Assembly: GCA_001464915.1 (NCBI GenBank)
Contig: LNED01000022.1
Span: 211,256-275,255 of the forward strand
Length of the DNA: 64,000 bases
Origin: Sphingomonadales bacterium Ga0077531
GTDB lineage: Bacteria; Pseudomonadota; Alphaproteobacteria; Sphingomonadales; Sphingomonadaceae
Direction of reading: 5' to 3'
Below the pieces are notes generated by a model. The model did not search any database. It was not told the DNA's origin and saw only the letters and a list, made by a program, of their open reading frames with translations. Shown piece by piece: positions 12,044 through 46,438 of this stretch. A program made the position numbers and the translations under genes. Position 1 is the first letter of the stretch; each line of letters starts with the position of its first letter.

Positions 12044-12781
12044 TCAAAACGAAAAATCGTAACCGGGCGCAAAGCCGAACTCGGCGGCTTGGGCGGCCGG
12101 AAGGCTCGCGGTTGTTCGCAGCAATTGCCGGGCAGAAAGCGGTGAAGGCGGATCGATCAGGACGTTGTCCGGATCGTAGTTCGCGCCGATCACCACAAAC
12201 GCGATATTGTTCCACGCCTGTTCAAACTGCGCCCGCGTCATCGTACGATTGCCCAGCGCTGGATCGCCAATTGCGATCTGATCGCCGAATACCTTGCGGA
12301 CGACGACGAAGTGTTTGTATCCCCGCACGTCGATCAACACGATCACCGGGATATTAAGCTGGGCCAAGGCCGGATAGTCGATCCGGTATCCTTCGGCGTT
12401 CAAACCTACGGATTGCGCGTAGGTTTTCATATCCAGCAGCGAAAATCCCTTCTGCCGCACAGTATCGGGATCAGCGACCTTCAGCATGTTGACCAGCACC
12501 TGGCGCTCGGTCGTCTGATAGCCATAAGCGCCGTTGAATATCGTCGCCATGACGGCGGCTCCGCAGCTGAAATCTGTCTGCTGACGGACGAGATCCTCGA
12601 ATTTCATCGCCTTCCAACTGACCGGGCGCGCGCTCAGCGTCGGCGCTCCGTTGACCAATTGTCCCAGCCATACCGGCGTCTTTTCAGCCGGCGCGTTCGC
12701 ACACCCGGCCAGCGCAAATGCAGCCGTAAGCGACAGCACGACTGCACGTGGGTTTGACCGGAAGGCGTGATTATGAAACAC
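12044..12781 (-). CDS. fapD: FapD-like C39-family cysteine protease, probable lipoprotein
   Basis: RQQTDFSCGAAVMATIFNGAYGYQTTERQV (Cys), RGYKHFVVVRKVFGDQIAIGDPALGNRTM (His/Asp); lipobox LAGC. GTG start at 12781 preferred. Confidence 0.8.
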   Translation of the reverse strand: MFHNHAFRSNPRAVVLSLTAAFALAGCANAPAEKTPVWLGQLVNGAPTLSARPVSWKAMKFEDLVRQQTDFSCGAAVMATIFNGAYGYQTTERQVLVNMLKVADPDTVRQKGFSLLDMKTYAQSVGLNAEGYRIDYPALAQLNIPVIVLIDVRGYKHFVVVRKVFGDQIAIGDPALGNRTMTRAQFEQAWNNIAFVVIGANYDPDNVLIDPPSPLSARQLLRTTASLPAAQAAEFGFAPGYDFSF

Positions 12782-28388: not shown

Positions 28389-28406
28389 CAGTCACAATCG
28401 CGTCAC
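28389..28406 (+). promoter_or_regulatory. Candidate Pho box upstream of response regulator
   Basis: CAGTCAC-AATC-GCGTCAC: 7-4-7 direct repeat, 11-bp period, 42 bp before the start codon. Confidence 0.5.
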
Positions 28407-28447: not shown

Positions 28448-29122
28448 ATGGACGTCGTCAATATCTTCCTGACCAGTGATCTTGGCGAAAGCCTGGAGGA
28501 TTTCGTCCACGATCAGCGGCGTTTCACCTTTGATCGGTTGGGAGCAGGCGGCCCGCGCCGCTTGGTCGAAGGGCCGATGTGGGCGTTTATTGACTGGGTG
28601 CTGTCCGATCTTGCGGGCCTTGAACTGTGCCGACGCCTGCGCGCCGACCCACGCACCAACGATGCCCACATCACGATGGTGCTGGAGGAGGACGATGCCG
28701 AGGATCGCCGCCGGGCCTTGCGGGCAGGCGCCGATGATTATGTGATTGGCCCGCTCACCCGCACCGCCGTGCTCGACCGAGTGCTGGCGCTGCAATCGCG
28801 CGGGGCCGAGCGGCACGCGACACAACGGTTCGAACTCGGCGCGTTGACGATTGACATGGCGGCTTTGCAGGCGCGCTGGAACGAGGCGCCGATCGTGCTG
28901 CGTCCCAACGAATTCCGGCTGCTGCGGTTCTTTGCCGAAAATCCCAACCGGGTGCTGACGCGAGACGATCTGATCAGCGGCCTTGGCAAGCGCGAACCTG
29001 CGATTGATGAACGCACCGTCGATGTCTGGATCGGCCGATTGCGGCGCGCGATCAAATCAGCCGGCGGCGGCAACCCGCTGCGCACTGTGCGATCACTCGG
29101 GTATGTGTTTGATCTGGGATAG
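28448..29122 (+). CDS. OmpR/PhoB-family response regulator with degenerate receiver
   Basis: C-terminal winged helix PIVLRPNEFRLLRFFAENPNRVLTRDDLISGLGKREPAIDERTVDVWIGRLRRAIKSAGGGNPLRTVRSLGYVFDLG; receiver lacks the canonical N-terminal acidic pair. Confidence 0.85.
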   Translation: MDVVNIFLTSDLGESLEDFVHDQRRFTFDRLGAGGPRRLVEGPMWAFIDWVLSDLAGLELCRRLRADPRTNDAHITMVLEEDDAEDRRRALRAGADDYVIGPLTRTAVLDRVLALQSRGAERHATQRFELGALTIDMAALQARWNEAPIVLRPNEFRLLRFFAENPNRVLTRDDLISGLGKREPAIDERTVDVWIGRLRRAIKSAGGGNPLRTVRSLGYVFDLG

Positions 29123-29286: not shown

Positions 29287-32001
29287 TCAGAACTCAGCCT
29301 TCAGCCCGATCGAGAAGCTCGTGCCGACCTGGAAGGTGTTGATCTCGGCGCGGTTGCCGTTGATCTCCTGGAATTCAAAATTGTCGCGCCCGAAGATGTT
29401 GCGGGCCTCCAGCGACAATTCGAGCGGCACGCCGCCGAGCTTGATCGCCGAACGTCCCACCACATCGACGGTGAGGCCAGGATTTTCGACCACATCGGGC
29501 AGTGCCCCGCCGCGCAACGTCACACGCTCACTTGCGTAGTTGAGCAGCACGGTGAACTGCTGCACCTTGTCGAGATCCTCGATCCCGAGCGACAGGTTTG
29601 CCACGTGATCCGACTGGCCGACCAACGGTGACCCTTCGTCGAACAGCTGGCTCGCCACCTGCGTCGGCGCACCGGGGATCGGCGCAAGGTCAGTCGCGCC
29701 CACCGAAATGCTCGACTGGGTGTAGGTGTAGTTGGCGATGATCAGGAACTGCTTGGTTTCAAAGAACCCGCCCCAATCAGCCAGATCGATCCCGTAGGCG
29801 ACATCAAGCTCGGCTCCGTACAACTCAGCCGACGGCGCGTTGGCGTAGCTGGTTTCGATGACCCCCGGAGCGGTGATCAGGAAGTTTTCGATCGGGTTGT
29901 CGATTTCCTTGTAGAAGCCTGCAAGGCTGATCCGGCTTGGCCCACCGAGGTAATATTCGGCGCGCGCTTCGGCGTTGATCAACTCGCTGTCCTGCAGGAA
30001 CGGGTTCCCGCGGAAACGGCGGTTGGAGTCCGGATCGAAATAGGTCTGCTCCACCAGCTCGCGGAACTGCGGGCGGGCGATGGTCCGCGATGCGGCAAGG
30101 CGCAGTTGCAGATCGTCGATCACTTCCCAGGTGATCGTGGCCGACGGCAGGAAGTAATCGTTGGCAATCCGCGTCGGGTTGGCAAGGTTGCCGCCGCCGA
30201 AGGTGAGATCAGGCGCAGCCACCTGCAATGCGTCTTCATAACGCACGCCGGCTTCGATGTTCAGCCGGTCGGTCGCGCGGAAGCGGGCAAGGCCGTATCC
30301 AGCATGGATCGTCAGCGCCGCATCGAACACCGGGAACGGGGTCGGGTCCGACACGGTGACGTTGAAGAACGGCGTGCCGTCCGGGAAAGTCGCCAGCGTT
30401 GACCCGTTGATGATCTGCCCCGGCTGACGCAGCCCCAATGCCCGCAGCGCGGTGTTGAGATCCGCAGTGGAATCGATCAGCGGACGGATGATGAACGACA
30501 GCGAGCGCCGCTCCGTATCGGTGTAGGCATAGCCTGCAGTAACTGACAGCGTGTCGGTCAGTTCATAGGAAAGGTCGGCGCCGCCGAAGATCAGCTCTTC
30601 TTGCAGATCTTCAAACCCGACCTGAATGCGCTCCGTCCCGCCAATCTGGGCGCCGACATCGACAACGAACAGGCTGCCAAATGGATCGCCCGCGATGTTG
30701 GTGCGGATATAGGGGATGGTGGCATTGTAGGGCGCTTCACGATCGGTGCGGGCATAGCCGCCGCGCAGGTCGAGTTCGAGCTTGTCGAATTCAAATTCGG
30801 CCACGATCTGCGAATCGACCAATTGGCGTTCGAAATAGCCGGTCTGCTGGGTCTGGAAATCGAACCCGGTTACGCGGTCGGTGAAGAAATCGGTGCCTTG
30901 GGCAAAGCGCGCGGTCTTCAATGAGTCGCGGATATACAGGTTGGTCCAACGGATCGTGTGCTCGCCAATGTCGAGCCCGATGCCGATCAAACCATTCACC
31001 AGCACCTTGTTATCGGTGATGAAGGTGTTCGAATCGAAGATGATATCGCCCGCCTCTGCATCACCGAACTGCTGGCTGATGACCGAGCGGTTGCGCCAGG
31101 TGTTGGTGATCCCGGCGGTGGCGATGATGCCGAGGTAGTTGCCGTCGCCCACTTCGAACGAACCACCACCGGTGATGTTGGCGGTAAAGTTGATCGGCAG
31201 TTCGTCATTGCGCTGCAAGGTCACGAGGTTGATCGGCAGGATCTGCCCGGCAAGCTGACGCTGCACATCGGCAGGCGCATCATTCACGCGGGTGCCGCTG
31301 GCGATCAGGCCTTGTAGCGCGCTCGGAAGGTCGCGGTTGCCGTTGTCGAAGCCGAAGGTGTCGAGCCGCGATCCGAAATAGGTCAGCCCGTTTTCAAACG
31401 TAGTTTCAGTGTCGCCGCTGGCGGTGAAGCCGAGCGTGAGGAAATCCTCGGTCGGGATCGCCTTGGTGGTGAGGTTGATCACCCCGCCGCCGAATTCACC
31501 CGGGAAGTTGGCCGAGTAGGTTTTCTGCACCAGCGATGATGCGATCACGCTGGTCGGGAAAATGTCGAGCGGAACCACGCGGCTCAACGGTTCGGGGCTC
31601 GGCAGCGGCAGGCCGTTCAGCAGCGCGAGCGAGTAACGATCACCCAAGCCGCGCACGAACACGCGGCCATTGCCCACCAGCGAGAGGCCGCTGACGCGGC
31701 TCAAGGCGCCGGCGATGTCGCCTTCGCCGGTGCGGGCGATATCGGCTTCGGACAGCACGTTGAGCACCTGGCCCGAATTGCGCGCCGGATCGCGGTTGCG
31801 CCGTCCGGTGACGATGATCCCGCCGCCGGGCACCGAAATATCGGTGTCCTCCAGCTGCTCCTCCGGTGGGGTATCCTCGACCTGCTCGGTCAGTTCATCC
31901 TCGCTCGGCGGAGTGCCCGCGTCTTGCGCGTGCAGAAGCGATGGCATGGTGAGCGCGGTGGTGAAGAGCAGCAAACCTGCAAGGCGCGTGCCGTTCGACA
32001 T
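29287..32001 (-). CDS. TonB-dependent receptor
   Basis: Signal peptide; plug IIVTGRRNRDPARNSGQVLNVLSEADIARTGEGDIAGALSRVSGLSLVGNGRVFVRGLGDRYSLALLNGLPLPSPEP; C-terminal FSIGLKAEF. Confidence 0.9.
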   Translation of the reverse strand: MSNGTRLAGLLLFTTALTMPSLLHAQDAGTPPSEDELTEQVEDTPPEEQLEDTDISVPGGGIIVTGRRNRDPARNSGQVLNVLSEADIARTGEGDIAGALSRVSGLSLVGNGRVFVRGLGDRYSLALLNGLPLPSPEPLSRVVPLDIFPTSVIASSLVQKTYSANFPGEFGGGVINLTTKAIPTEDFLTLGFTASGDTETTFENGLTYFGSRLDTFGFDNGNRDLPSALQGLIASGTRVNDAPADVQRQLAGQILPINLVTLQRNDELPINFTANITGGGSFEVGDGNYLGIIATAGITNTWRNRSVISQQFGDAEAGDIIFDSNTFITDNKVLVNGLIGIGLDIGEHTIRWTNLYIRDSLKTARFAQGTDFFTDRVTGFDFQTQQTGYFERQLVDSQIVAEFEFDKLELDLRGGYARTDREAPYNATIPYIRTNIAGDPFGSLFVVDVGAQIGGTERIQVGFEDLQEELIFGGADLSYELTDTLSVTAGYAYTDTERRSLSFIIRPLIDSTADLNTALRALGLRQPGQIINGSTLATFPDGTPFFNVTVSDPTPFPVFDAALTIHAGYGLARFRATDRLNIEAGVRYEDALQVAAPDLTFGGGNLANPTRIANDYFLPSATITWEVIDDLQLRLAASRTIARPQFRELVEQTYFDPDSNRRFRGNPFLQDSELINAEARAEYYLGGPSRISLAGFYKEIDNPIENFLITAPGVIETSYANAPSAELYGAELDVAYGIDLADWGGFFETKQFLIIANYTYTQSSISVGATDLAPIPGAPTQVASQLFDEGSPLVGQSDHVANLSLGIEDLDKVQQFTVLLNYASERVTLRGGALPDVVENPGLTVDVVGRSAIKLGGVPLELSLEARNIFGRDNFEFQEINGNRAEINTFQVGTSFSIGLKAEF

Positions 32002-32125
32002 TGGTGAGGATCCCCTCATGATAGGCCTAGATGATGTGAGCAGCAGAGCGCCGCCCGGAATATGGAAAAAGGGGAGGCGCGGCACACACACGTGGCCGCA
32101 CCTCCCCACATTATTCACTCAGCGA

Positions 32126-33688
32126 TTAGCTGAAGACCGGCAGCGAGGTGCAGGCGCCGGTTGCGCTGCTGAAGTTCTGGGTTGCCGAGTTGCAGGTCCA
32201 GTTGCCGAAGATGCTGGTCAGCGCCGCGGCGTTCTGGATCGCGCCGATGAAGGTGCGGGTCGGGAAGAAGGTCGAGCGGGTGTTGGCATTGAACGCCGTC
32301 CGGCCCGCTTCGCCCGTGCCGTTCACCACATTGTTGGTGAGCGTGATCATGAACGCGAAGTTGTTGTTGGTGCCAGCGTTGATCGCTGCCGCCGCATCTG
32401 CGTTGGTCACGCCGGCGCCGCCGCGGATCGGATCGACTGCGGGACAATCGCCCACCACCGAATCAACCCCGATGAGTGCAGCCAAAGTGGCCGGCTCGTC
32501 GATCTGGAAGCACTGGTTGGTGCCAGCGTTGATTACACCATTGGTCAGACCCAAAGCTGCACCGCCGCGCGCCTGCACCACCTGCGGCGAAGCGTCGCGG
32601 GTGACGAAGGTGAAGTTGTTCAGCTGGAAGCGGGTCTGCGGGATGTTGTTCGACGGGGTACGGTCGGCAACGTTGGGCGAATCGAGTTCGATCAAGCGGT
32701 CACCCGTGGTCGAACGCTGCACAGCGATCATGGTGTCGACATTGACGATCGCGCCGGTGTCGACATCGATCGAATCGTCCGATGCGCCGATGATCGCAAA
32801 GTTGCGGGCATTGAAGCCGCCGCCGAAGAATTCGACGCCATCATCCGAGCTGTTGAACGATAGCAGGTTTTCGATGGTGGTGCCCGAACCCGCGCCGCCG
32901 GTGGTCAGCGACTGGAGTTCGTTGTTCGGAGCAAGTTCAAAGCCCGAGAAACGGATCTGGTTGAACCGGAACGAGCCCGAGCTATCAGCAGCGTTGGTGC
33001 CGCCAAACGGCGTTGCGGTGGCGGCGCCTTCAAGGCGGCCTTCGCAAGTGGGGTTGTTGGTCGGCGCAGCAACGGTGTTGAACACGCCGTTCGAGCAATC
33101 CGAAATCGGCGCACGGCCGAGCAGCACGACGCCGCCCCACTGTTGCTGGCTGTTGTCATTCGACAGGCCGATGATGTTGTCACGGCTGGTCCAGATGATC
33201 GGACGATCAGCGGTGCCGTTCGACTGGATCGCGTTGCCGCGATTCACCACCAGGAACGAATCCTGCTGCGCGAAGAAGATCACGCCGGGCTCTACGGTCA
33301 GCGTGACAGTGGTGCCGGTGCTGGCGAAGCCGCGATCCGTGCCCACGTCGACGCGGCCATTGATCTGGTAAACCAGACCCGGAATGCGCGGCAGAGTGTC
33401 GGTGCTGGTGAAGCGGGCGGGCAACTGGCAGACTCGGTAAGTACCGGTCGGGCCGCTGATCGTACCAGCGTCGACGAGGCCGCCAGCGGTCGCAATGGTC
33501 GGGCAACCAGCAGCCGGGGTCACGAGCGACTGAGTCGGCGTCGGGGTCGGCGTGGGGGTCGGTGTCGGGGCCGGATTGTTGATGATGATGTCACCGCCGG
33601 TGCCTGGCGAGACGATTTCATCCGCGCCGCAACCTGCCAATGCCAGCAGGCTGCAACCCAGTACGAGAGTGCGTTGAATGTTTTTCAC
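32126..33688 (-). CDS. Surface lipoprotein, beta-helix-like, with Pro-Thr linker
   Basis: Lipobox LAGCG; PAPTPTPTPTPTPTQ linker; Asn/Gly-rich body; upstream of the TonB receptor on the same strand. Confidence 0.75.
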   Translation of the reverse strand: MKNIQRTLVLGCSLLALAGCGADEIVSPGTGGDIIINNPAPTPTPTPTPTPTQSLVTPAAGCPTIATAGGLVDAGTISGPTGTYRVCQLPARFTSTDTLPRIPGLVYQINGRVDVGTDRGFASTGTTVTLTVEPGVIFFAQQDSFLVVNRGNAIQSNGTADRPIIWTSRDNIIGLSNDNSQQQWGGVVLLGRAPISDCSNGVFNTVAAPTNNPTCEGRLEGAATATPFGGTNAADSSGSFRFNQIRFSGFELAPNNELQSLTTGGAGSGTTIENLLSFNSSDDGVEFFGGGFNARNFAIIGASDDSIDVDTGAIVNVDTMIAVQRSTTGDRLIELDSPNVADRTPSNNIPQTRFQLNNFTFVTRDASPQVVQARGGAALGLTNGVINAGTNQCFQIDEPATLAALIGVDSVVGDCPAVDPIRGGAGVTNADAAAAINAGTNNNFAFMITLTNNVVNGTGEAGRTAFNANTRSTFFPTRTFIGAIQNAAALTSIFGNWTCNSATQNFSSATGACTSLPVFS

Positions 33689-33812
33689 AGCGAGCGGTCC
33701 CCTCAGAAGCCGAGAATCAAAAAGGCGCGGTCAATCGGCGCTGAGTGGTGCGCTAGGGGCGCTGCATGACAGAATTCTTGCAGCATGACAGTCGTGTGGC
33801 AATTCGTGTAAT

Positions 33813-33830
33813 ATGACCGAAGAATGACAA
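33813..33830 (-). promoter_or_regulatory. Candidate Pho box upstream of lipoprotein/TonB unit
   Basis: Minus strand TTGTCAT-TCTT-CGGTCAT, 7-4-7; further GTCAT copies at 33833, 33785 and 33766. Confidence 0.5.
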
Positions 33831-34007
33831 AAATGACCAAAAAGAATTTTTCAGAGCGCCGCTGAGAGCGCGCATATGTCATATATAAAACGCTAAAAAA
33901 CAGATGGTTGAAGCATCAAATTACAAATAAAAGACAATATTGCAGTTTTATTGCATTCACGTTGAAGGTGAGTCACTATGCTCCTCAGTTAGAGAGGGAG
34001 CTTGCCC

Positions 34008-34555: not shown

Positions 34556-34582
34556 TTCACCGGGCTGTCACCTGTCTGTCAT
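34556..34582 (+). promoter_or_regulatory. Strong candidate Pho box upstream of the T4SS operon
   Basis: CTGTCAC (34565)-CTGT-CTGTCAT (34576), 7-4-7; weaker third unit TTCAC in phase at 34556; 40 bp upstream of the first T4SS gene. Confidence 0.65.
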
Positions 34583-34621
34583 TTAGGTTAGACAAAGGGA
34601 GGCATTCTGGAGGCTTCGGGA

Positions 34622-35263
34622 ATGATTCTCGCCGCGGTTCGCCGCGTCATGTTTGCTGCGCTAGTGCTCGGTCTTGCGACCGGAGCGCGGGCCGACGTGC
34701 TCGAAATCGGCCCCGACGGCGCGCGCTGGGTGGCAGGGCCGCTTGTGCAAAGCGCGGCGGCCGATCCGGCGCTGGTCGATGCGGCTGGGTTCGAGCCGGT
34801 GGTGATCGAAGGCGTGTCGGTGCCAGATAGCGCCATCGCCGATCCCGCGCGCCATGCTGCAGGCGTCCCCTTGCGCTACACCGCCAAAATTCAGGAACTG
34901 GCCGCGCGCTTCGACCTCTCACCCAGCTTGCTCGAAGCACTGGTGTGGCAGGAAAGCCGCTGGCGCGAAGATGCCCGCTCGCCGGTCGGTGCGCAGGGGC
35001 TGGCGCAATTGATGCCGGGCACGGCGCGTTATCTGGGTGTGAACCCGGCTGATCCCTTCGCCAATCTGGAAGGCGGGGCGCGGTACCTGCGCGAACAGCT
35101 CGACCGGTTTGACGGTGATCTGGAAAAGGCGCTCGCCGCCTATAATGCCGGGCCGGGGCGCGTCGAACGCGCGAACGGTATCCCGAATATCCGCGAGACA
35201 AAGCAATATGTTGCCGCCATTATGGGGCGGCTCGCCAACCATTCGCGTCCGTCGCCGCAATAG
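34622..35263 (+). CDS. virB1: VirB1-like lytic transglycosylase
   Basis: LSPSLLEALVWQESRWREDARSPVGAQGLAQLMPGTARYLGVNPADPFANLEGGARYLREQLDRF...ALAAYNAGPGRVERANGIP. Confidence 0.85.
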   Translation: MILAAVRRVMFAALVLGLATGARADVLEIGPDGARWVAGPLVQSAAADPALVDAAGFEPVVIEGVSVPDSAIADPARHAAGVPLRYTAKIQELAARFDLSPSLLEALVWQESRWREDARSPVGAQGLAQLMPGTARYLGVNPADPFANLEGGARYLREQLDRFDGDLEKALAAYNAGPGRVERANGIPNIRETKQYVAAIMGRLANHSRPSPQ

Positions 35264-35314
35264 GCGCCGGATGATTGCCCCGATGATCGCTCAGTTGAAA
35301 GTGTCGAGAAAGAA

Positions 35315-35626
35315 ATGATGTCGCTGTTTCGTATACCTGCCCGTCTGATCGCGCTTGTCATGTTTGCGCTCACCCCGAGCGCAGCTTTTGCCCAAGCCGC
35401 CGACCCTGCCGGTTCCGGCCCGATCAATAACGCGCTGCTGTGGTTGCAGGGCACGCTGCTGGGCACGGTGGCGACCACCGTTGCCGTCATGGCGGTCGCG
35501 GCCATCGGCTTCATGATGCTGACCGGCCGGATGAACTGGCGCTTTGGCGCAACCGTGATCGTCGGCGTGTTCATCCTGTTCGGCGCGACCACCATCGTCG
35601 CTGGCATCCAATCGGCCGCCGGGTAG
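35315..35626 (+). CDS. virB2: VirB2/TrbC-like pilin
   Basis: Signal peptide then two TM segments, NNALLWLQGTLLGTVATTVAVMAVAAIGFMMLTGRMNWRFGATVIVGVFILFGATTIVAGIQ. Confidence 0.85.
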   Translation: MMSLFRIPARLIALVMFALTPSAAFAQAADPAGSGPINNALLWLQGTLLGTVATTVAVMAVAAIGFMMLTGRMNWRFGATVIVGVFILFGATTIVAGIQSAAG

Positions 35627-35633
35627 AATTGCG

Positions 35634-35918
35634 ATGAGCGAGCTCACCCGCAACCCGGTGCACCGCGCGCTCACCCGCCCGCAGATGTTCATGGGCGTGA
35701 CGATGAATTTCTTCATCATCAACCTGATGGTGACGACGATCGCCTTCCTCGTGCTCAAAAGCTTCTGGATCATCCCAGTGCCGATTGCGATGCACGTGGT
35801 CGGCTACTTCGGTTCGCTGCGCGAACCGCGCATTTTCGACCTGTGGATCACCAAGGTCAGCAAATGCCCGCGCGTGCCCAATTTCAAGCGCTGGGGATGC
35901 AATTCCTATGCTCCTTAG
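35634..35918 (+). CDS. virB3: VirB3-like protein
   Basis: NPVHRALTRPQMFMGVTMNFFIINLMVTTIAFLV; between virB2 and virB4. Confidence 0.85.
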   Translation: MSELTRNPVHRALTRPQMFMGVTMNFFIINLMVTTIAFLVLKSFWIIPVPIAMHVVGYFGSLREPRIFDLWITKVSKCPRVPNFKRWGCNSYAP

Positions 35919-35930
35919 AGAGTCCCGCAC

Positions 35931-38375
35931 ATGAAGAAATGGATCGGAGCCGCCGCCTGGAGCGCGAAGGAAGCCCGCGTCGGCGACCGGCTGCCCTATG
36001 CGCGCCTGGTCGACGAGAACACCGTGCTGCTGCGCGATGGATCGGTGATGAGCGCGATCCAGGTGCCAGGCCTGTTGTTCGAAACCGAGGATTCGGACGC
36101 GCTCAATTCCCACGCCGCCACGCGCGAAGTGATGCTGCGTTCAACGCTCGATGCGCGGTTCGTGATGTATCACCACGTCATCCGCCGCCGGGTCGAAGTA
36201 GAGCTGGATGCCGAGTTTCCCGACGCCCTGTCGCGCCATATCGATGCGCGCTGGAAGCAGCGGCTGGCGGGCGGATCGCTGTTCATCAATGATCAGTTCG
36301 TCACCTTGATCCGCCGCCCTGCACGCGGCAAGACGGGGTTGCCGGAACGCTTCTCCAAGTTCTTCTCGCGTCAGGGTCAGGATGAGCTTGAAGCCGATCC
36401 CAAGGACATCCGCAGCCTGAAAGCCGCGATCACAGGGTTGGTCGCCTCGCTGCAAAGTTACGGTGCGGCGGTGCTGGGCGATTACCAATCGCCCGGGAGC
36501 ACGCAGGGCGGCACCAATTCGGAAATGCTCGAACTGCTGTCGGCGCTTTATAATGGCGAGATGCGCCCGGTGCGGCGCCCGTCTGAGGATACCGATATCG
36601 GCCACATGCTGCCCTATCGCCGGGCGAGCTTCGGGCTCGATGCGATGGAACTGCGCGGGTCAGCCGCTCCTGATTTTGCCGCGATCCTTGGGCTGAAAGA
36701 TTACCCCGAGGCAACCTCGCCCGGTCTGCTCGACAACCTGCTGCGCCTGCCGTTCGAGATGGTCGTATCGGAAAGCTACGCCCCCAACGAACGCACCACT
36801 GCGCGCGAACGGATTGACCTCGCGCTGCGCCGGTCGCGCTCGGTGGACGAGGAAGCTGCTGCCGAACGCAACGAAATGATGGCTGCGCGCGATGCGCTCG
36901 GCAACGGCGGCGTCGGGTTTGGTGACCACCACCTGACCGTACTGGTGCGCGAACGCTCGCTCGACCGGCTCGACGACGCGATGGCGTCCTGCGCGGCGGC
37001 GCTGGCGGATACCGGCGCGATTGCGGTGCGCGAAGATACCAACCTCGAACCCGCGTTCTGGGCACAATTCCCCGGTAATGAGGAATATATCGTGCGCCGC
37101 GCGCTGATATCCTCGGCCAATATGGCGGGTTTTGGCAGCTTCCACGGGTTCGCGCTGGGGCAGGCCAGCGGCAACCACTGGGGCGAAGCGGTGACGCTGC
37201 TGGAAACGACCAGCGCCACCCCGTTCTTCTTCAATTTCCACCACGGTGATCTGGGCAATTTCTCGGTCATCGGCCCGTCGGGTTCGGGCAAGACCGTGGT
37301 GATGAACTTCCTTGCCGCGCAGGCGCAGAAGTTCAAACCGCGCACCATTCTGTTCGACAAGGATCGCGGCGCGGAGCTGTTCATTCGCGGTATCGGCGGG
37401 CGGTATGACCGCATCTCGCCGGGTGAGCCGACCGGATTTAACCCGCTTTCCCTGCCCGATACGCCCGCGAACCGCGCTTTTCTGCGCGATTGGCTCGCGG
37501 TGCTGCTCAATGCCGATGGGCCAGAGGAATTCGCGCTGGTCAGCGGCGCGGTGGATGCGACCTATGCCAATGATCCGAGCCTGCGGCGGCTGCGGCATTT
37601 CAAGGAATTGCTGGCGGGCGCGCGGCGGCCTGAACCGGGCGATCTGGCTGACCGGCTGAGCGCCTGGATCGGTTCGCCCAGCGGGGATGGCGGCGAACAC
37701 GCGTGGCTGTTCGATAATGAGCGCGACCGGCTTGATCTCGGCACGCGCGTGCTCGGCTTCGACATGACCGCGCTGCTTGAAAACCCGCGCCTGCGCACGC
37801 CGACGATGATGTATCTGTTCCACCGCATCGACGAACGGTTGGATGGTCAGCCGACCATGATCCTGATCGATGAAGGCTGGAAGGCGCTGGATGACGAGGT
37901 GTTCGCCGCGCGCATCCGCGATTGGCTCAAGACGCTGCGGAAACGCAACGCGCTGGTGGGATTTGCGACACAGTCGGCGCGCGATGCGCTCGATAGCCGC
38001 ATTTCGACCGCATTGGTCGAACAGACCGCGACAATGGTGTTCATGCCCAACAGTCGCGCCCGGCCTGAGGATTACTGCGACGGGTTCGGCCTGACCGATC
38101 ACGAATTCGCGCTGATCCGCTCGCTCCCGGCACACAGCCGCTGCTTCCTCGTGCGGCAGCCCGATGCCAGCGTTGTCGTGCGGCTCGACCTGTCGGGCGC
38201 GCCTGAGGTGCTGACGATCCTGTCGGGCCGCGAAAGCGCGGTGCGCAGGCTCGATCTGCTGCGCGAAGCGGTCGGCGATGAACCTTCGGCGTGGTATCCG
38301 GCGCTGACCGGGCGCGAATGGCCCGATGGCGAAGTGGACGAAGATGGTCAGCCGATCTGGCAGGCAGCCGAATGA
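35931..38375 (+). CDS. virB4: T4SS ATPase VirB4
   Basis: 814 aa; Walker A VIGPSGSGKTVVMNFLAAQ; Walker B TMILIDEGWKALDDEVF. Confidence 0.95.
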   Translation: MKKWIGAAAWSAKEARVGDRLPYARLVDENTVLLRDGSVMSAIQVPGLLFETEDSDALNSHAATREVMLRSTLDARFVMYHHVIRRRVEVELDAEFPDALSRHIDARWKQRLAGGSLFINDQFVTLIRRPARGKTGLPERFSKFFSRQGQDELEADPKDIRSLKAAITGLVASLQSYGAAVLGDYQSPGSTQGGTNSEMLELLSALYNGEMRPVRRPSEDTDIGHMLPYRRASFGLDAMELRGSAAPDFAAILGLKDYPEATSPGLLDNLLRLPFEMVVSESYAPNERTTARERIDLALRRSRSVDEEAAAERNEMMAARDALGNGGVGFGDHHLTVLVRERSLDRLDDAMASCAAALADTGAIAVREDTNLEPAFWAQFPGNEEYIVRRALISSANMAGFGSFHGFALGQASGNHWGEAVTLLETTSATPFFFNFHHGDLGNFSVIGPSGSGKTVVMNFLAAQAQKFKPRTILFDKDRGAELFIRGIGGRYDRISPGEPTGFNPLSLPDTPANRAFLRDWLAVLLNADGPEEFALVSGAVDATYANDPSLRRLRHFKELLAGARRPEPGDLADRLSAWIGSPSGDGGEHAWLFDNERDRLDLGTRVLGFDMTALLENPRLRTPTMMYLFHRIDERLDGQPTMILIDEGWKALDDEVFAARIRDWLKTLRKRNALVGFATQSARDALDSRISTALVEQTATMVFMPNSRARPEDYCDGFGLTDHEFALIRSLPAHSRCFLVRQPDASVVVRLDLSGAPEVLTILSGRESAVRRLDLLREAVGDEPSAWYPALTGREWPDGEVDEDGQPIWQAAE

Positions 38376-39571
38376 GCACCGCGTGTGATCTTGCCGCCCA
38401 GTCGATGGGCACCGGGGTTTCATCGGCACTGACGGCGGTGGACTGCATCGCCAGCGGTGTCAGCGAACAGGCCTTCAACCGCCTGTTCGGTACCGAAGGT
38501 CAGCTGACCTTCGCGCTGACCATGATGCTGGTGTTGTATGTGGCGTTCTTCGGCATCTCGCTGATGCTGGGGCGGTCGAACCTGTCGGTGCGCGCGCTGC
38601 TGCCCAAGATGGTGACGCTGGGGCTGGTGGTCGGTTTTGCGACCAGCTTTGTCACGTTTTCAACATTCTTCTACAACATCTTCGTTGGCGGGCCGGATCA
38701 GATCGCGGGCATTTTGACCGGCACCCAAGGTTCGGCCACCGCGACCTTCGCGCAGAAACTCGACGTGGTGTTTCTGGCGATCCAGCAAGCGAGCGGGCCG
38801 ACCACCGATATCAACGCCTTCTCCCCGCCGGGGATGATGTGGCTGGGTGCGATGCTGCTGCTGCTCGGCACGGTCGGCCTGCTGGTGACAGCGCGGATTG
38901 CGCTGGCGCTGTTGCTGGCGGTGGGGCCGATTTTTGTGGTGATGGCGTTGTTCGAAGGCACGCGCGGGCTGTTCACCGGCTGGCTCAAGGGGCTGACGAT
39001 GATGGCGCTGGCGCCGCTGTTCGCGGTGCTGGGCGGATCGATCGTGCTTGAACTTGCCGTGCCGATCCTCGCCGCGCTGGTGGCGGTGCCGGGGCAGATC
39101 GATCAGCAGGCGGCAATGGCGTTCTTCCTCGTCGGCGCGGTGCATGTGGCGCTGATGTTCATGGCGTTAAAGGTCGCAGGCACGATGGTGGCGGGCTGGC
39201 AGGTGTTCGGCCTGGTGCCGAACAAAGAACGTGACCGCGACAGTGATGCGCCGCGCAATGTGCCGCTGGCCGCGCCGGCGGCGACCACCATGCCGCGCAA
39301 CATGAATGTTGCCCCGGCTAGCCCTGCCGCAGGCTCGCGCAGGGTTGATGTTGCCCCCACTTTGCCCACGCAGGCAGCCAATGATGCCGGGCCCGCGGGC
39401 AATGTTTCACGTGAAACGCGGATCTATGCCACCAGCGATGCAGGCGGGCAGGTGGTGCCGCTCAATCCTGCCACATCGCGCACCCGCGGTATCGGCAACC
39501 GCTTCCGTTCGGCCAGCAGCACCCCCGCTGCCAAGCCGAAAGTGCAACCGCCTACGGAGACTTACCAATGA
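38372..39571 (+). CDS. virB6: VirB6-like polytopic T4SS protein
   Basis: MSTACDLAAQSMGTGVSSALTAVDCIASGVSEQAFNRLFG...; multiple TMs (LLVTARIALALLLAVGPIFVVMALFEGTRGLFTGWLKG); 4-nt overlap with virB4. Confidence 0.9.
   Translation: MSTACDLAAQSMGTGVSSALTAVDCIASGVSEQAFNRLFGTEGQLTFALTMMLVLYVAFFGISLMLGRSNLSVRALLPKMVTLGLVVGFATSFVTFSTFFYNIFVGGPDQIAGILTGTQGSATATFAQKLDVVFLAIQQASGPTTDINAFSPPGMMWLGAMLLLLGTVGLLVTARIALALLLAVGPIFVVMALFEGTRGLFTGWLKGLTMMALAPLFAVLGGSIVLELAVPILAALVAVPGQIDQQAAMAFFLVGAVHVALMFMALKVAGTMVAGWQVFGLVPNKERDRDSDAPRNVPLAAPAATTMPRNMNVAPASPAAGSRRVDVAPTLPTQAANDAGPAGNVSRETRIYATSDAGGQVVPLNPATSRTRGIGNRFRSASSTPAAKPKVQPPTETYQ
39403..39418. promoter_or_regulatory. Near-perfect parS-like palindrome inside virB6
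   Basis: TGTTTCACGTGAAACG, one mismatch to TGTTTCACGTGAAACA. Confidence 0.55.
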
Positions 39572-40392
39572 CCCGCGCCGCGCTCCTCTCCGCGCTTGCC
39601 CCAATGCTGGCGACGCTGCTCGCCGCACCCGTCGTAGCGCAGGATAACCGCTTGCAAACGCTCGTCTTCAACGAAGAAGCCGTGGTGCGCATCGATGGCA
39701 AGGTGAAGGTGCAGACCACCATCAAATTCGCCCCCGATGAAGCGATTGAAAACGTCGCCATCGGCGATAGCGCGGCATGGCAGGTGCAGCCGAACAAGGC
39801 GCAGACGATCCTGTTCGTCAAACCGCTCGAACCGGCCGCGCGCACCAATATGACCGTGGTGACCGACAAGCGCACCTACCTGTTCGATCTGGTCGCCAGC
39901 CCCCGCAACGCGCCGCTATATGTGCTGCAATTCCGCTACCCCGAGCTGGAAAAAGCCGAGGAAGAAGCGCGGCTTGCGCTGGCTGCCGAGGTTGAGGCAG
40001 CGGCCTTGCGCGAAGCGGCCAATCCGACCGAATTGGCCGCTGCCAATGATCGCTTTGCCGTGGTCGATCCGGCCAGCCTCAACTTTGCATGGGCCAGCGC
40101 CGGCACTGCCGGACTGCTCCCGACGCGTGCTTATGATGATGGCGAAGCGTTGTTCCTGACCTGGCCGCAGGGCATCGAAATCCCCGCGATCCTGATTACC
40201 AATGATGATGGCGACGAAGGCCCGGTCAACTTCACTGTGCGCGGCGATACGGTGGTGGTTGACGGGGTACCCCCGCAGATCATCCTGCGATTAGGCCGCG
40301 ACACCGCGACGCTGACCAACACCGGCCCTGCCAAGCCCAATGCTCGTAGCGCTGCACTCAATCTGTCCAAGCCTGCAACGGAGACCAACTGA
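39568..40392 (+). CDS. virB9: VirB9-like outer-membrane complex protein
   Basis: Signal peptide; QVQPNKAQTILFVKPLEPAARTNMTVVTDKRTYLFDLVAS; ILITNDDGDEGPVNFTVRGDTVVVDGVPPQIILRLG. Confidence 0.9.
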   Translation: MTRAALLSALAPMLATLLAAPVVAQDNRLQTLVFNEEAVVRIDGKVKVQTTIKFAPDEAIENVAIGDSAAWQVQPNKAQTILFVKPLEPAARTNMTVVTDKRTYLFDLVASPRNAPLYVLQFRYPELEKAEEEARLALAAEVEAAALREAANPTELAAANDRFAVVDPASLNFAWASAGTAGLLPTRAYDDGEALFLTWPQGIEIPAILITNDDGDEGPVNFTVRGDTVVVDGVPPQIILRLGRDTATLTNTGPAKPNARSAALNLSKPATETN

Positions 40393-41528
40393 TGCGTCTG
40401 GCCATGCGTTTGCCGCCCAAAAAGGGCGATGGTGCCACCAGTGAAACCGGCGATCCGCGGGAACGTGAATCCGCCGAAATCATCGATCTCGCCAGTCGTG
40501 CGGCGTTCCCCGCCGTCACTGACCGGAAGGCCAAGGGCGACAGCCTTGGTCTTGCCGCCGGGGTGGCAGTGGTTGCTGGGATTGGCGCGGTCACTTTCTG
40601 GGCGATGAGTTCAACTAGCCTGCCCGATCAGCAGGGTGTGGGCAATCCGGCGGTGGCACCAACGACTGCGGCGGTAACGCCTGCGGTTGCGCCGCCGTCC
40701 ACCAATCCTGCGGTGGTTCCGACCACCGCGCCGCAGCCTGATCCTGCGCCCGCACCCGTGCTTGCCAACAACCCGTCGTTCCAGACTGTTACGGCCATCA
40801 ACCCCTATGCCAGCCCGAGCCTGATTTTTGATGGCAGCACGGCGGCAAGCAGCTTTGGGCAGGCCGTAGCGCCGGTTCCGGCGGCCGCAGCAGCAGGGAC
40901 GGGCGTTACCGCTGGCACCGGCGGCGCTGCCGCTTTCGCCAGCCAGATCGGCGGCGTGGGCGGCGCGCCCGCTCGGGCCCGTCCGATGACCAATCCATCG
41001 ACCACCGTGACCGAAGGCACGCTGATACCTGCGATCCTCGAAACCGCGATCAACACCGATGTGCCCGGCTTTGTCCGCGCGGTGGTGAGCCAGGACGTGC
41101 GCAGCTTTGACGGCAAGCGCGTGCTGGTGCCGCGTTCGTCGCGGCTGATCGGGCAGTATCAGGCCGGTGTGCAGCAGGGCCAGCGCCGCGCCTATGTGAT
41201 CTGGACGCGGTTGATCCGGCCCGATGGCGTTTCGGTCAACCTCGCGTCCCCTGCAATCGCATTTGACGGAACCACCGGGCTTCAAGGCGACGTCAACAGC
41301 CACTTCTTCAAACGCTTCGGTTCGGGCCTGCTGCTGTCGGTAGTTGGCGGGCTTGGCGCATTGGCGACCGGTGGGGTCGGCGGCGTGATCGTTGCGGGCG
41401 GCGCGCAAAGCGCGGCCAGTTCGGCGGTGCAATCGCAGGGCGAAATCAGCCCCACCATCCGCGTGCGGATGGGCGAGCCGATCCGCGTGTTCACCGCGCG
41501 CGATCTCGATTTCAGCACGGTTAGCTGA
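40392..41528 (+). CDS. virB10: VirB10-like protein
   Basis: Single TM, Pro/Ala-rich linker, C-terminal VTEGTLIPAILETAINTDVPGFVRAVVSQDVRSFDGKRVLVPRSSRLIGQYQAGVQQGQRRAYVIWTRLIRPDGVSVNL. Confidence 0.95.
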   Translation: MRLAMRLPPKKGDGATSETGDPRERESAEIIDLASRAAFPAVTDRKAKGDSLGLAAGVAVVAGIGAVTFWAMSSTSLPDQQGVGNPAVAPTTAAVTPAVAPPSTNPAVVPTTAPQPDPAPAPVLANNPSFQTVTAINPYASPSLIFDGSTAASSFGQAVAPVPAAAAAGTGVTAGTGGAAAFASQIGGVGGAPARARPMTNPSTTVTEGTLIPAILETAINTDVPGFVRAVVSQDVRSFDGKRVLVPRSSRLIGQYQAGVQQGQRRAYVIWTRLIRPDGVSVNLASPAIAFDGTTGLQGDVNSHFFKRFGSGLLLSVVGGLGALATGGVGGVIVAGGAQSAASSAVQSQGEISPTIRVRMGEPIRVFTARDLDFSTVS

Positions 41529-41536
41529 GCGGTAGC

Positions 41537-42556
41537 GTGAGCGCGGATATCCATCGGTTGACGGCAATGGGCGAGGATGAAGCCAGCGCAGCGCCGCTGT
41601 CGGCTGAACGCAGCGTCTATCTCGACGCCTATCTCGCGCCGTTCCGTCGTTGGCTTGACCGCGACACGGTGACCGAAATCATGGTCAATCGCCCGGGCGA
41701 AGTGTGGATTGAAGACGCCGCCAGCCCGGGAATGCAGCGGATCGAAACGCCTGAGATTGACGACCGGCTGGTGCAGCGCCTCGCCGAGCAGGTGGCGCGG
41801 GTCAGCCATCAGGGGATCAACCGCGAACACCCTTTGCTTGGCGCGACATTGCCCGATGGCGCGCGCGTGCAGTTCTGCGGGCCGCCAGCCAGCCGTAAGC
41901 ATTGGGTGATGGCGATCCGCCGCCACCGCCGGCTTGATCTGCCGCTTGACGCCTATGATACCGGCCCGCTGGTGGGGGAGGGCGTGATTGACCTGCCCGA
42001 TCCGCAGTTCCAGCCGATCGCCTTTCTGCGCGAAGCCATCCGTGCGCGCCGCACCATCCTGATTTCGGGCGGGACGAGCACCGGCAAGACGACGTTCCTC
42101 AACGCCATGCTCGGCGAAATCCCGCGCGCCGAACGCGTGGTGCTGGTGGAAGATACGCCGGAGCTGAAATTCCCCGGCGAAAACGCCGTCGGCCTCGTCG
42201 CGATCAAGGGCGAATTGGGTGAGGCCAAGGTCACCGCCAACGAATTGCTGCAAGCCGCGCTTCGCCTGCGGCCCGACCGGATCGTGCTGGGCGAATTGCG
42301 CGGCGCGGAAAGCGTCAGCTTCTTGCGAGCGATCAACACCGGGCACCCGGGCAGCTTTTCGACAATCCACGCCAACAGCTTGCGCGGAGCGCTCGAACAA
42401 TTATCGTTGATGGTGATGCAGACCGGGATCGGGCTGACCCGGTCGGACACGATCGCCTATGCTGCCAGCGTGATCGACGTGCTGGTGCAACTGGGCCGCG
42501 ATGCCAATGGCAAACGCGGCATCACGCAGATTGCGAACAGCCGCGATCTGGTTTGA
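41537..42556 (+). CDS. virB11: T4SS ATPase VirB11
   Basis: ILISGGTSTGKTTFLNAMLGEIPRAERVVLVEDTPELKF; RPDRIVLGELRGAESVSFLRAINTGHPGSFSTIHAN. Confidence 0.95.
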   Translation: MSADIHRLTAMGEDEASAAPLSAERSVYLDAYLAPFRRWLDRDTVTEIMVNRPGEVWIEDAASPGMQRIETPEIDDRLVQRLAEQVARVSHQGINREHPLLGATLPDGARVQFCGPPASRKHWVMAIRRHRRLDLPLDAYDTGPLVGEGVIDLPDPQFQPIAFLREAIRARRTILISGGTSTGKTTFLNAMLGEIPRAERVVLVEDTPELKFPGENAVGLVAIKGELGEAKVTANELLQAALRLRPDRIVLGELRGAESVSFLRAINTGHPGSFSTIHANSLRGALEQLSLMVMQTGIGLTRSDTIAYAASVIDVLVQLGRDANGKRGITQIANSRDLV

Positions 42557-42594: not shown

Positions 42595-42612
42595 TTGACA
42601 TTGTTGTGACAA
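42595..42612 (-). promoter_or_regulatory. Candidate Pho box upstream of ppk
   Basis: Minus strand TTGTCAC-AACA-ATGTCAA, 7-4-7, 93 bp upstream of ppk. Confidence 0.45.
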
Positions 42613-42704: not shown

Positions 42705-44909
42705 ATGAGCACGTCACCGATTGCCAGCCATGATGGTGGCGCCAACGCAGGCACCGTGCAGATGGCTGAGCTTGGCCCCGACGAATCGCCTTATTTCAAT
42801 CGCGAGCTATCGTGGCTGCAATTCAATCAGCGGGTGCTGGCCGAAGCCTGCAACGAAAAATATCCGCTGCTTGAACGGCTGCGGTTCCTGTCGATTTCAG
42901 GCAGCAATCTTGATGAATTCATGATGATCCGCGTCGCCGGGCTGGTGGGTCAGGTGCAGCGCGGGCTGGAGGCCCCCTCGCTCGACGGGCGCAGTCCTTC
43001 GCAGCAATTGGCCGCGATCCGCGAAAAGCTGGCCGAATTGTCCCAGCGTCAACAGGCAATCTGGCGATCCGTGCGCGAAGGGCTAGCAGGCGCAGATATT
43101 CACATTGCGGATGAACAGCGCGTCAGCCCCGCTGCACACAAGTGGCTGAAAACGTTCTTCCTCAACGAAATTCTGCCGATCATCACCCCGCAGGCGCTCG
43201 ACCCCGCGCACCCGTTCCCATTCGTCCAGAACGAGGGAATGGGCCTATTGTTCACGCTGACCCGTGACGCCACCCGCGAACAGCTGATCGAGATGGTGCT
43301 GATCCCCAGTGCGCTGCCGCGGTTTGTGCGCGTGCCCGATACGGTGACTGGCGAAAGCGGTGTCCTCTACATCTCGATCGCGCGCATGATCCAGCGTTAT
43401 GCCGAGGCATTGTTCCCCGGCTTCACCATTCAGGGTGACGGGTTGTTCCGGGTGCTGCGCGACAGCGACATCGAAATCGAGGAAGAAGCCGAAGACCTCG
43501 TGCGCACTTTCCACAGCGCGATCCAGCGGCGGCGGCGGGGGCAGGTGATCCAGCTGGAGATCGAAGAGGATTTCGATCCTGCCGCTGAGGCATTGTTGCT
43601 CGACCAGCTCGGCATCAACGAAGCGGCGTTGATCAAGACCGATGGCATCATCGGCGTCGATGGCCTGGCCGAAATCGTCCGCGAAGACCGGCCCGATCTC
43701 AAATTCGACGCCTATTCCCCGCGCCTGCCTGAACGTGTGCGCGAACATGATGGCGATGTTTTTTCCGCCATCCGCGAGAAAGACATAGTCATCCACCACC
43801 CCTACGAAAGTTTCGAAGTGGTGGTCGATTTCATCCGGCAAGCCGCCGCCGATCCCGATGTCGTGGCGATCAAGCAGACGCTGTACCGCGCGGGTTCGCA
43901 ATCCGCAGTGATCGGCGCGCTGATCGAGGCGGCTGAGGCCGGCAAATCGGTGACCGCCGTGGTCGAATTAAAGGCCCGGTTCGACGAGGAACAGAACCTC
44001 AAATGGGCGAGCGCGCTGGAACGTGCGGGCGTGCAGGTGATCTATGGCTTCACCGACTGGAAAACCCACGCCAAGGTGGCAATGGTGGTGCGCCGCGAAG
44101 GTGATGGTTTCCGCAGTTACTGCCATTTCGGCACCGGCAATTACCACCCGGTCACCGCCAAGATTTACACCGATCTGAGCTTCTTCACCGCTGATCCCAA
44201 GCTGGCGCGTGATGCGGCCAAGATGTTCAATTTCGTCACGGGTTATGTCGAGCCCCACGCGCTTGAACGGATCCATATCGCGCCGATTGATCTACGCGAT
44301 GAAATCTACCGCCGGATCGACACTGAAATCGCCAATGCGCAGGCCGGGCAACCGGCCGCGATCTGGTTCAAGTGCAATCAACTGACCGACGAAGGCGTGA
44401 TCGACCGGCTTTATGCTGCCAGCAATGCCGGCGTGCAGGTCGAATTGGTGGTGCGCGGGATCTGCTGTTTACGACCGGGCATTGTCGGCCTTTCCGAGAA
44501 TATCCGGGTCAAATCGATCATCGGCCGCTTCCTTGAACACAGCCGCATTTATGCCTTTGCCAATGGTCACAAGATGCCCAGCGCCCAAGCTGCGGTCTTC
44601 ATCGCATCGGCTGACATGATGGGCCGCAATCTTGATCGCCGGGTCGAGGCGCTGATCCCGATCCTTAACCGCACGGTGCATGATCAGGTGCTGCAACAGG
44701 TGCTGCTCGCCAATATGCTCGATACCGAACAAAGCTGGTGGCTGCATCCCGATGGTTCGTATTCGCGGGTCGAGGCTGCCAAAGAGGATGGGGCCAAGCC
44801 GTTCAACTGCCACCGCTATTTCATGACGAACCCATCGCTATCAGGGCGCGGCGGGGCGTTGGAGGCGGGCGCTGTGCCCAAACTGACGATGCGCCGAGGG
44901 GCGGCTTAG
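42705..44909 (+). CDS. ppk1: Polyphosphate kinase 1
   Basis: YFNRELSWLQFNQRVLAEA; IHHPYESFEVVVDFIRQAAADPDVVAIKQTLYRAG; HFGTGNYHPVTAKIYTDLSFFTADP. Confidence 0.97.
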   Translation: MSTSPIASHDGGANAGTVQMAELGPDESPYFNRELSWLQFNQRVLAEACNEKYPLLERLRFLSISGSNLDEFMMIRVAGLVGQVQRGLEAPSLDGRSPSQQLAAIREKLAELSQRQQAIWRSVREGLAGADIHIADEQRVSPAAHKWLKTFFLNEILPIITPQALDPAHPFPFVQNEGMGLLFTLTRDATREQLIEMVLIPSALPRFVRVPDTVTGESGVLYISIARMIQRYAEALFPGFTIQGDGLFRVLRDSDIEIEEEAEDLVRTFHSAIQRRRRGQVIQLEIEEDFDPAAEALLLDQLGINEAALIKTDGIIGVDGLAEIVREDRPDLKFDAYSPRLPERVREHDGDVFSAIREKDIVIHHPYESFEVVVDFIRQAAADPDVVAIKQTLYRAGSQSAVIGALIEAAEAGKSVTAVVELKARFDEEQNLKWASALERAGVQVIYGFTDWKTHAKVAMVVRREGDGFRSYCHFGTGNYHPVTAKIYTDLSFFTADPKLARDAAKMFNFVTGYVEPHALERIHIAPIDLRDEIYRRIDTEIANAQAGQPAAIWFKCNQLTDEGVIDRLYAASNAGVQVELVVRGICCLRPGIVGLSENIRVKSIIGRFLEHSRIYAFANGHKMPSAQAAVFIASADMMGRNLDRRVEALIPILNRTVHDQVLQQVLLANMLDTEQSWWLHPDGSYSRVEAAKEDGAKPFNCHRYFMTNPSLSGRGGALEAGAVPKLTMRRGAA

Positions 44910-46438
44910 TGACCTACGGAAAGCGGCGGGGGGACAAGAACGGTGCGATTGCCGGCAGCCGGCCCGAACGCGCGATTATCGACATCGGATCGAACACCGT
45001 GCGGCTGGTCGTCTATGGCGGCACGATGCGCGCGCCCACGGTGCTGCTCAACGAAAAAGTCACCGCCAAGCTGGGGCGCGAGATTGCCGCGACCGGCCGG
45101 CTGGCGGACGAGGCAATGGCGCTGGCGCTGCGGGGGCTGAAGCGGTTTGCGCTGCTGCTCACCGATCTTGGCATCAATGATATTGATACCGTGGCGACGG
45201 CGGCTGTGCGCGATGCGGCCAACGGCCCGGAATTCGTCGAACAGCTGCGCGCTATTGGCCTGAACCCCCGCGTGATTTCTGGCGAGCAAGAAGCACTGCT
45301 CAGCGCCCACGGGGTGATCGGCGCATTTCCCGATGCGCGCGGGATCGTGGCCGATCTGGGCGGCGGCAGCCTTGAACTGGTGCGCGTTTCCGGCGGCAAA
45401 ACTGACAGCGCGAGTACCCTGCCATTGGGCACGCTGCGCCTGCCCGATCACCGCAAGGATGGCCGGGCCGAAATGAAAAAGTCGCTCGACAAGGCAATCC
45501 GCAAAGGCGGGTGGGATCTGGCTGCGAACCCGCCGCAAGCGAACGGTGCGCTTTATCTGGTCGGCGGAACATGGCGCGCGATGGCAGTGTTTGCGATGGC
45601 GGCACAAGGCTATCCGCTCAGCGATCCGCACGGGTTTGAGCTGGACGCCGCCGCCGCGCTCGAACTCGCAAACAGCCTTGCCGCAAGCGAAACCGAATTG
45701 ATCAAGGGGCGCGAACGGATATCTGCCATGCGCGCGGAAAAGCTGCCTGATGCGGCCGTGCTGCTCCAGTCCTTGCTGACGCAGTTGAACCCCGAACGGG
45801 TGGTGTTTTCATCATGGGGCCTGCGCGAAGGGCTGCTTTATGATCGCCTGCCCGCGCACACCCGGGCGCAGGATCCGTTGCTGGCCGGGGTTGCGGTGTT
45901 TGCGAGCCATCGCGGGTCAGAGCCGACTTTGGCGACCCGGATGGCGGCTTGGACGCTCGACGCTGCACCAGCGCGCGAGCATGGCAGCGAACGGCTGCGG
46001 CTGGCGGCGACGATGCTGGCGCTGGCGGCGATGCAGATCGAGCCCAATATCCGCCTGCCGCAAGCGATCAACTGGGCGCTGCACAAGCGCTGGGTCGGGA
46101 TTGATGGCAAGGGCCGAGCGATGCTGGCGGCGGCGATTGCCGCCAATGGCAATCAGCTTAATTTGCCAGCGCGGGTGCGCGCCTTGGCGAGCGAGGAGGC
46201 GCTGGAGGAAGCGGTGCGCTGGGGTCTCGCGCTGCGGATCGCGCGGCGGCTGGGCGCACAATCGCGCCGCTCGCTTGAGGTGAGCCGATTGGGAGTAGAA
46301 GACGGCGCGTTGGTGCTCAAGCTGGCGGAAAGCCACGCTGCCCTGCTTGGCCAACCGACCGAAAAGGACATGAAGCTGCTCGCCGGAAGGCTGGGCCTCG
46401 GCTGGCGGGTCGATATCGTCCCCGAAATTGCGGCTTAA
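44909..46438 (+). CDS. ppx: Exopolyphosphatase / Ppx-GppA family
   Basis: AIIDIGSNTVRLVVYGG, ISGEQEALLSAHGVIG, GIVADLGGGSLELVRV; GTG start overlaps the ppk stop (TAGTG). Confidence 0.92.
   Translation: MTYGKRRGDKNGAIAGSRPERAIIDIGSNTVRLVVYGGTMRAPTVLLNEKVTAKLGREIAATGRLADEAMALALRGLKRFALLLTDLGINDIDTVATAAVRDAANGPEFVEQLRAIGLNPRVISGEQEALLSAHGVIGAFPDARGIVADLGGGSLELVRVSGGKTDSASTLPLGTLRLPDHRKDGRAEMKKSLDKAIRKGGWDLAANPPQANGALYLVGGTWRAMAVFAMAAQGYPLSDPHGFELDAAAALELANSLAASETELIKGRERISAMRAEKLPDAAVLLQSLLTQLNPERVVFSSWGLREGLLYDRLPAHTRAQDPLLAGVAVFASHRGSEPTLATRMAAWTLDAAPAREHGSERLRLAATMLALAAMQIEPNIRLPQAINWALHKRWVGIDGKGRAMLAAAIAANGNQLNLPARVRALASEEALEEAVRWGLALRIARRLGAQSRRSLEVSRLGVEDGALVLKLAESHAALLGQPTEKDMKLLAGRLGLGWRVDIVPEIAA

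Follow-up and report, generated by a model that had tools for sequence, protein, structure and literature searches.

To our knowledge, nearly all characterised type IV secretion systems (T4SSs) are linked to conjugation, virulence, killing or competence. A connection to phosphate starvation has been described in Agrobacterium, where the P1 promoter of virG is induced under this condition (PMC4285021), and for the type II secretion system of Caulobacter, which together with the lipoprotein ElpS responds to phosphate starvation within the PhoB regulon (PMC2996285, PMC11208175). Erythrobacter carries a virB4-bearing T4SS, which is reported to be found in one copy in all 14 genomes, to co-evolve with the genome and to be vertically inherited (PMC4919336). 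Here, we analysed a window of 64,000 nucleotides, the whole of the stretch under study, from Sphingomonadales bacterium Ga0077531 (contig LNED01000022.1, positions 211,256 to 275,255), in which the repeat CTGTCAC-CTGT-CTGTCAT, a Pho-type box, precedes a virB operon. As in Agrobacterium, a VirB-type T4SS would be tied to phosphate starvation, but there the tie is indirect, via the regulator gene virG, whereas here the core operon is chromosomal and has the box immediately in front of its virB1. With Caulobacter the locus would have in common that a secretion system belongs to the PhoB regulon, and it does share a TonB-dependent receptor gene nearby, although type II is another machine with other cargo. 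The single virB4-bearing copy is the feature in common with the core Erythrobacter T4SS, and neither its regulation nor missing VirB8 and VirD4 proteins are mentioned in the accessible part of that report; to this known, vertically inherited machine, our analysis adds a conserved Pho-type promoter element before virB1. In the literature, the coverage of which was partial, we found no account of T4SS regulation by phosphate in Erythrobacter and relatives.

The box is composed of the halves CTGTCAC (34565-34571) and CTGTCAT (34576-34582), separated by the spacer CTGT and followed by 39 bp up to the virB1 start codon at 34622, so that an earlier note on this DNA, which had placed a strong Pho box about 40 bp before the operon, was correct in position and letters. 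The exact 18-mer occurs a single time in the 2,838,754-bp genome, and it is also the sole site matching CTGTCAY-N4-CTGTCAY without mismatch. When up to two mismatches were allowed, 45 sites were counted genome-wide, against 16 for the reversed control, while up to three mismatches gave 16 sites in the window, with 10.1 expected. As loose matches are this frequent, one box alone is only suggestive, and conservation across species becomes the decisive part. Other near-perfect sites of the genome form no clean set of phosphate genes; one of them, at C43:3262, has a ribonucleotide reductase gene downstream, and a triple Pho-like repeat, TTGTCAC-CTTTCAC-CTGTCAT (L143:3262-3290; G000:C43), was observed there 5' of the gene of the large subunit.

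Conservation was followed in 80 orthologous loci retrieved by VirB4, whose usable organism names are Erythrobacter, Porphyrobacter and relatives, and in a partly overlapping set of 71 genomes, each of a different species, with a core virB operon; as an independent yardstick we used pstS promoters, taken from 31 loci within the family. These promoters share the repeat YTGTCAY-N4-YTGTCAY, with a site of at least 12 of the 14 consensus letters in 25 of the 31 loci, compared to 1.3% of random 260-bp windows. In 74 loci scored with a matrix built only from those 25 pstS sites, with up to about 45,000 positions in each, the virB site came out on top 59 times and in second place seven times. Calling a box at a matrix score of at least 14, which random sequence reached in none of 2,000 trials, we found it before 63 of the 71 core virB operons, whereas all 19 paralogous T4SS operons were without it (Fisher P = 1.5e-13, with no correction for phylogeny). 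Conservation upstream of orthologous loci, on which the earlier note had let its claim depend, was therefore confirmed. In orthologous loci having virB1 the repeat is nearly always there, mostly 52-58 bp 5' of the gene; Erythrobacter longus DSM 6997 and E. dokdonensis DSW-74 are examples of culturable relatives with the box. Over the 63 species the mean information content is 1.87 bits in the repeats (six positions each), but falls to 0.23 in the spacer and to 0.14 in the 25 bp upstream; near-invariant repeats beside a variable spacer and flank are, as a sequence pattern, that of a tandem binding site. No convincing box was found before virB in more distant VirB4 relatives (63-67% identity, within and outside the family), which indicates that the box is confined to the core clade.

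The likeness to pstS extends beyond the box. A Y-A dinucleotide 11 bp past it occurs in 21 of the 25 pstS promoters (in at most seven at any other offset) and in 58 of the 63 virB promoters; judged by sequence, the box would take the place of the -35 element, as is classic for PhoB. Two CTGTCAY-like repeats, an 11-bp period and a putative -10 element starting 11 bp past the box are common to the virB promoters and the pstS promoters of the PhoB regulon, although the former precede a T4SS operon. On the strength of the pstS match, the spacing to the putative -10 and the conservation in orthologues, the Pho box of the earlier note can be called genuinely Pho-type. Phosphate control of virB appears well supported by these comparisons, and we consider it probable that the repeat is a functional PhoB-type site, which would make a vertically inherited VirB apparatus without VirB8 and VirD4 part of the phosphate-starvation regulon in Erythrobacter and relatives. 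Most likely, PhoB phosphorylated by PhoR would bind the two repeats spaced by 11 bp, perhaps acting on virB with an orphan paralogue encoded alongside; once bound, it would replace the -35 element and recruit RNA polymerase to the weak -10 element, and virB1-B11 would be transcribed under phosphate scarcity. The core T4SS of marine and freshwater Erythrobacter and relatives would then probably be built when phosphate is short.

Several points weigh against this reading. The pstS matrix was made from sites selected by consensus and is hence biased toward the motif. The -10 hexamer of virB is weak, and in most orthologues it has CA instead of the TA of the pstS promoters. A TANNNT hexamer by the box, present in 36 of the 63 virB promoters, could be the real -10, in which case the box would lie over the -35 element or the spacer and could mean repression. 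Finally, loss of the box is commoner in species without the orphan, at 6/19 against 2/52 (P = 0.004, uncorrected).

This last association leads to the orphan itself, a PhoB-like regulator of the OmpR family, as a possible main reader of the box. Its best NCBIfam model is PhoB (TIGR02154), with 145.4 bits against an equivalog cut-off of 296.2; to judge from its sequence, it is PhoB-like, but not PhoB. Across relatives its receiver is without the conserved lysine (DDYVIGPL, compared to DDYLTKPF of PhoB), and with such damage it would probably not respond to a phosphate phosphorelay, but might run a local regulon, comprising itself, the TonB receptor/lipoprotein pair, virB and possibly ppk, either in answer to a different signal or one level below PhoB. 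This idea, which we regard as rather doubtful, draws on synteny with virB in many loci, on a recognition helix, RTVDVWIGRLRRAI, that is close to RTVDVHIRRLRKAI of PhoB and nearly fixed in relatives, on the orphan's own promoter with a GTCAC-N6-GTCAC box conserved across relatives, and on the location of all six strong sites of the window in its neighbourhood; moreover, the box is present in 50 of 52 species having the orphan and in 13 of the 19 without it. Of the 71 core-virB species, 19 are without the orphan, and the virB box is nevertheless strong in those 13, among them the three further genomes sampled from the genus of the window (G043, G123 and G182, scores 22.8-23.9), so the box can do without the orphan, which favours PhoB, while the association suggests that it may contribute. 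Furthermore, pstS promoters, the expected targets of PhoB, share the motif, and some genomes have the orphan but no detected core virB. The genome encodes seven OmpR-type DNA-binding domains; one of them belongs to a PhoB-like regulator encoded elsewhere (locus L183), which has the canonical helix RTVDVHIRRLRKAI and by its sequence looks like PhoB.

Instead of activating, a PhoB-type site could repress, if the TANNNT 1 bp past the box were the -10 element and the regulator blocked the polymerase, turning virB off in phosphate starvation. In favour of this, the hexamer at box+2 is found in 36 of the 63 virB promoters but in only one of the 25 pstS promoters, and in Rhodobacter the repressed targets of CenR have sites overlapping promoter elements (PMC9275681). 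Initially, we were concerned that TANNNT marked a non-canonical promoter, but the more conserved Y-A at box+11, shared by pstS and virB promoters, makes the canonical spacing preferred, though not proved, and TANNNT fades in more distant orthologues that still have the box; repression therefore seems unlikely to us. Little credence is given to a reading of the box by ChvI or another OmpR-family regulator with no link to phosphate. A ChvI-like regulator, named from sequence reading, is among the seven domains; Agrobacterium ChvI complements an E. coli phoB mutant, according to a title cited in PMC4285021, and in Brucella the orthologue BvrR takes part in regulating the virB promoter (PMC10538546), but the published ChvI motifs, GCC-N8-GCC and TTGC-N3-GCAA (PMC9731502), are unlike the box and were not seen in it. 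CenR, whose TGA-N8-TGA corresponds to the geometry of the box read backwards, was dropped as a candidate, as Sphingomonadales reportedly have no CenKR (PMC9275681). That the repeat is chance or non-functional sequence, for which the commonness of degenerate copies in the window might speak, is hardly credible, being contradicted by near-invariant repeats against a free spacer in 63 species, a nearly fixed distance to virB1, the top rank in most loci and the absence from paralogues.

Returning to the PhoB-type site as the preferred explanation, we found that it does not stand alone. In the window the pstS matrix gave six sites of at least 14, the next best being 10.7, and all six lie between 28389 and 42612, in one 14-kb block: three precede the lipoprotein/TonB-receptor pair, while the orphan promoter, virB and the gap between virB11 and ppk have one each (Table 1). 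By this clustering, it looks like a single regulated block. Apart from losses, many loci retain the gene order of regulator, TonB receptor/lipoprotein, TPR gene, virB, ppk and ppx. The lipoprotein has a lipobox and a PT-rich linker and lies beside the TonB receptor across relatives; it gave no Pfam or NCBIfam match, and its model no significant fold match in the PDB. The orphan regulator, the neighbouring Pho-type sites and ppk-ppx, just beyond its interval, were absent from the earlier note. It is conceivable, if tentative, that the T4SS was recruited into the phosphate physiology of the whole group as a machine for phosphorus acquisition, not for conjugation or virulence, run by PhoB and/or a dedicated PhoB paralogue that is encoded alongside and would act independently of phosphorylation, and working with the TonB receptor/lipoprotein pair and ppk-ppx. 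Phosphate control of the core chromosomal T4SS, if true, would in itself provide an induction condition open to testing for the machine of all 14 Erythrobacter genomes, the function of which is not established (PMC4919336), and would also tie secretion to TonB-dependent uptake and polyphosphate metabolism within a group including aerobic anoxygenic phototrophs.

Table 1. Pho-type sites, promoter elements and genes of the virB region; positions are those of the window.
Feature	Position	Strand	Remark
Pho-type box CAGTCAC-AATC-GCGTCAC before orphan	28389..28406	+	matrix score 14.9
Orphan PhoB-like OmpR-family response regulator	28448..29122	+	degenerate receiver; rival or additional box reader
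TonB-dependent receptor	29287..32118	-	conserved neighbour
Putative surface lipoprotein	32126..33688	-	conserved neighbour; predicted beta-helix, model pLDDT 85.6
Pho-type box before lipoprotein/TonB-receptor pair	33785..33802	-	matrix score 16.0
Second Pho-type box, lipoprotein/TonB-receptor pair	33813..33830	-	matrix score 14.3
AT-rich Pho-type box TTGTCTTTTATTTGTAAT	33920..33937	-	matrix score 16.6; similar sites in relatives about 250 bp before lipoprotein gene
Pho-type box CTGTCAC-CTGT-CTGTCAT	34565..34582	+	direct reading; top pstS-matrix site of window, score 19.8
TAGGTT (TANNNT) right after box	34584..34589	+	alternative -10 candidate; in 36/63 orthologues
Putative -10 CAAAGG, start at box+11	34593..34598	+	Y-A position of pstS promoters; predicted
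virB1, lytic transglycosylase (SLT)	34622..35263	+	Pfam PF01464
virB2, pilin	35315..35626	+	Pfam PF04956
virB3	35634..35918	+	Pfam PF05101
virB4, ATPase	35931..38375	+	Pfam PF03135; TIGR00929 above cut-off
virB6	38375..39571	+	Pfam PF04610; C-terminal third low-complexity, no VirB8-like domain match
virB9	39568..40392	+	Pfam PF03524
virB10	40392..41528	+	Pfam PF03743
virB11, ATPase	41537..42556	+	Pfam PF00437; TIGR02788 above cut-off
Pho-type site, virB11-ppk gap	42595..42612	-	matrix score 16.6; opposite strand to ppk; recurs in many relatives
ppk, polyphosphate kinase	42705..44909	+
ppx, exopolyphosphatase	44738..46438	+

The operon (34622-42556, forward strand) consists of virB1, 2, 3, 4, 6, 9, 10 and 11, followed by ppk and ppx, and the Pfam matches agree with the gene content given in the earlier note. 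The eight virB genes are packed so tightly that VirB5, VirB7 or VirB8 would not fit between them. VirB8 (PF04335) was detected neither in this genome (G000) nor in nine other core-virB species (G002, G009, G014, G015, G019, G027, G034, G039 and G049, two of them single-contig genomes), while 29 of 61 genomes gave matches; VirD4 (PF02534) was likewise not detected in these ten genomes, with matches in many relatives. A fusion of VirB8 into the C-terminus of VirB6 was considered, but this region is low-complexity sequence. Coupling-protein independence has precedents in Brucella VirB, pertussis Ptl and H. pylori ComB, which work with a VirB apparatus without VirD4; a VirB8-type subunit is present in those systems, whereas none was detected here. 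As both VirB8 and VirD4 went undetected, conjugation by the core T4SS seems unlikely, in line with the earlier note, though no search aimed at relaxases was made, and the gene set fits export independent of a coupling protein, or surface assembly, better than conjugation. The missing VirB8 also bears on the question of which parts of a T4SS are truly essential. The more specific proposal of the earlier note, that phosphatases or nucleases are exported or DNA is used as a phosphorus source, is compatible with the data, but nothing was found in its support.

Some observations were made on the distant virB operons as well. Between virB6 and virB9, those of L257-L260 (63-67% VirB4 identity; two outside the family) also seem to have no gene for VirB8. 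In L257, L258 and L260 the operon is likewise adjoined by the coding sequence of a PhoB-like DNA-binding domain that shares about 43-45% identity with that of the orphan (L257 ~11720-11941, L258 ~11351-11572, L260 ~12354-12575), although a Pho-type box was not found ahead of virB in these three.

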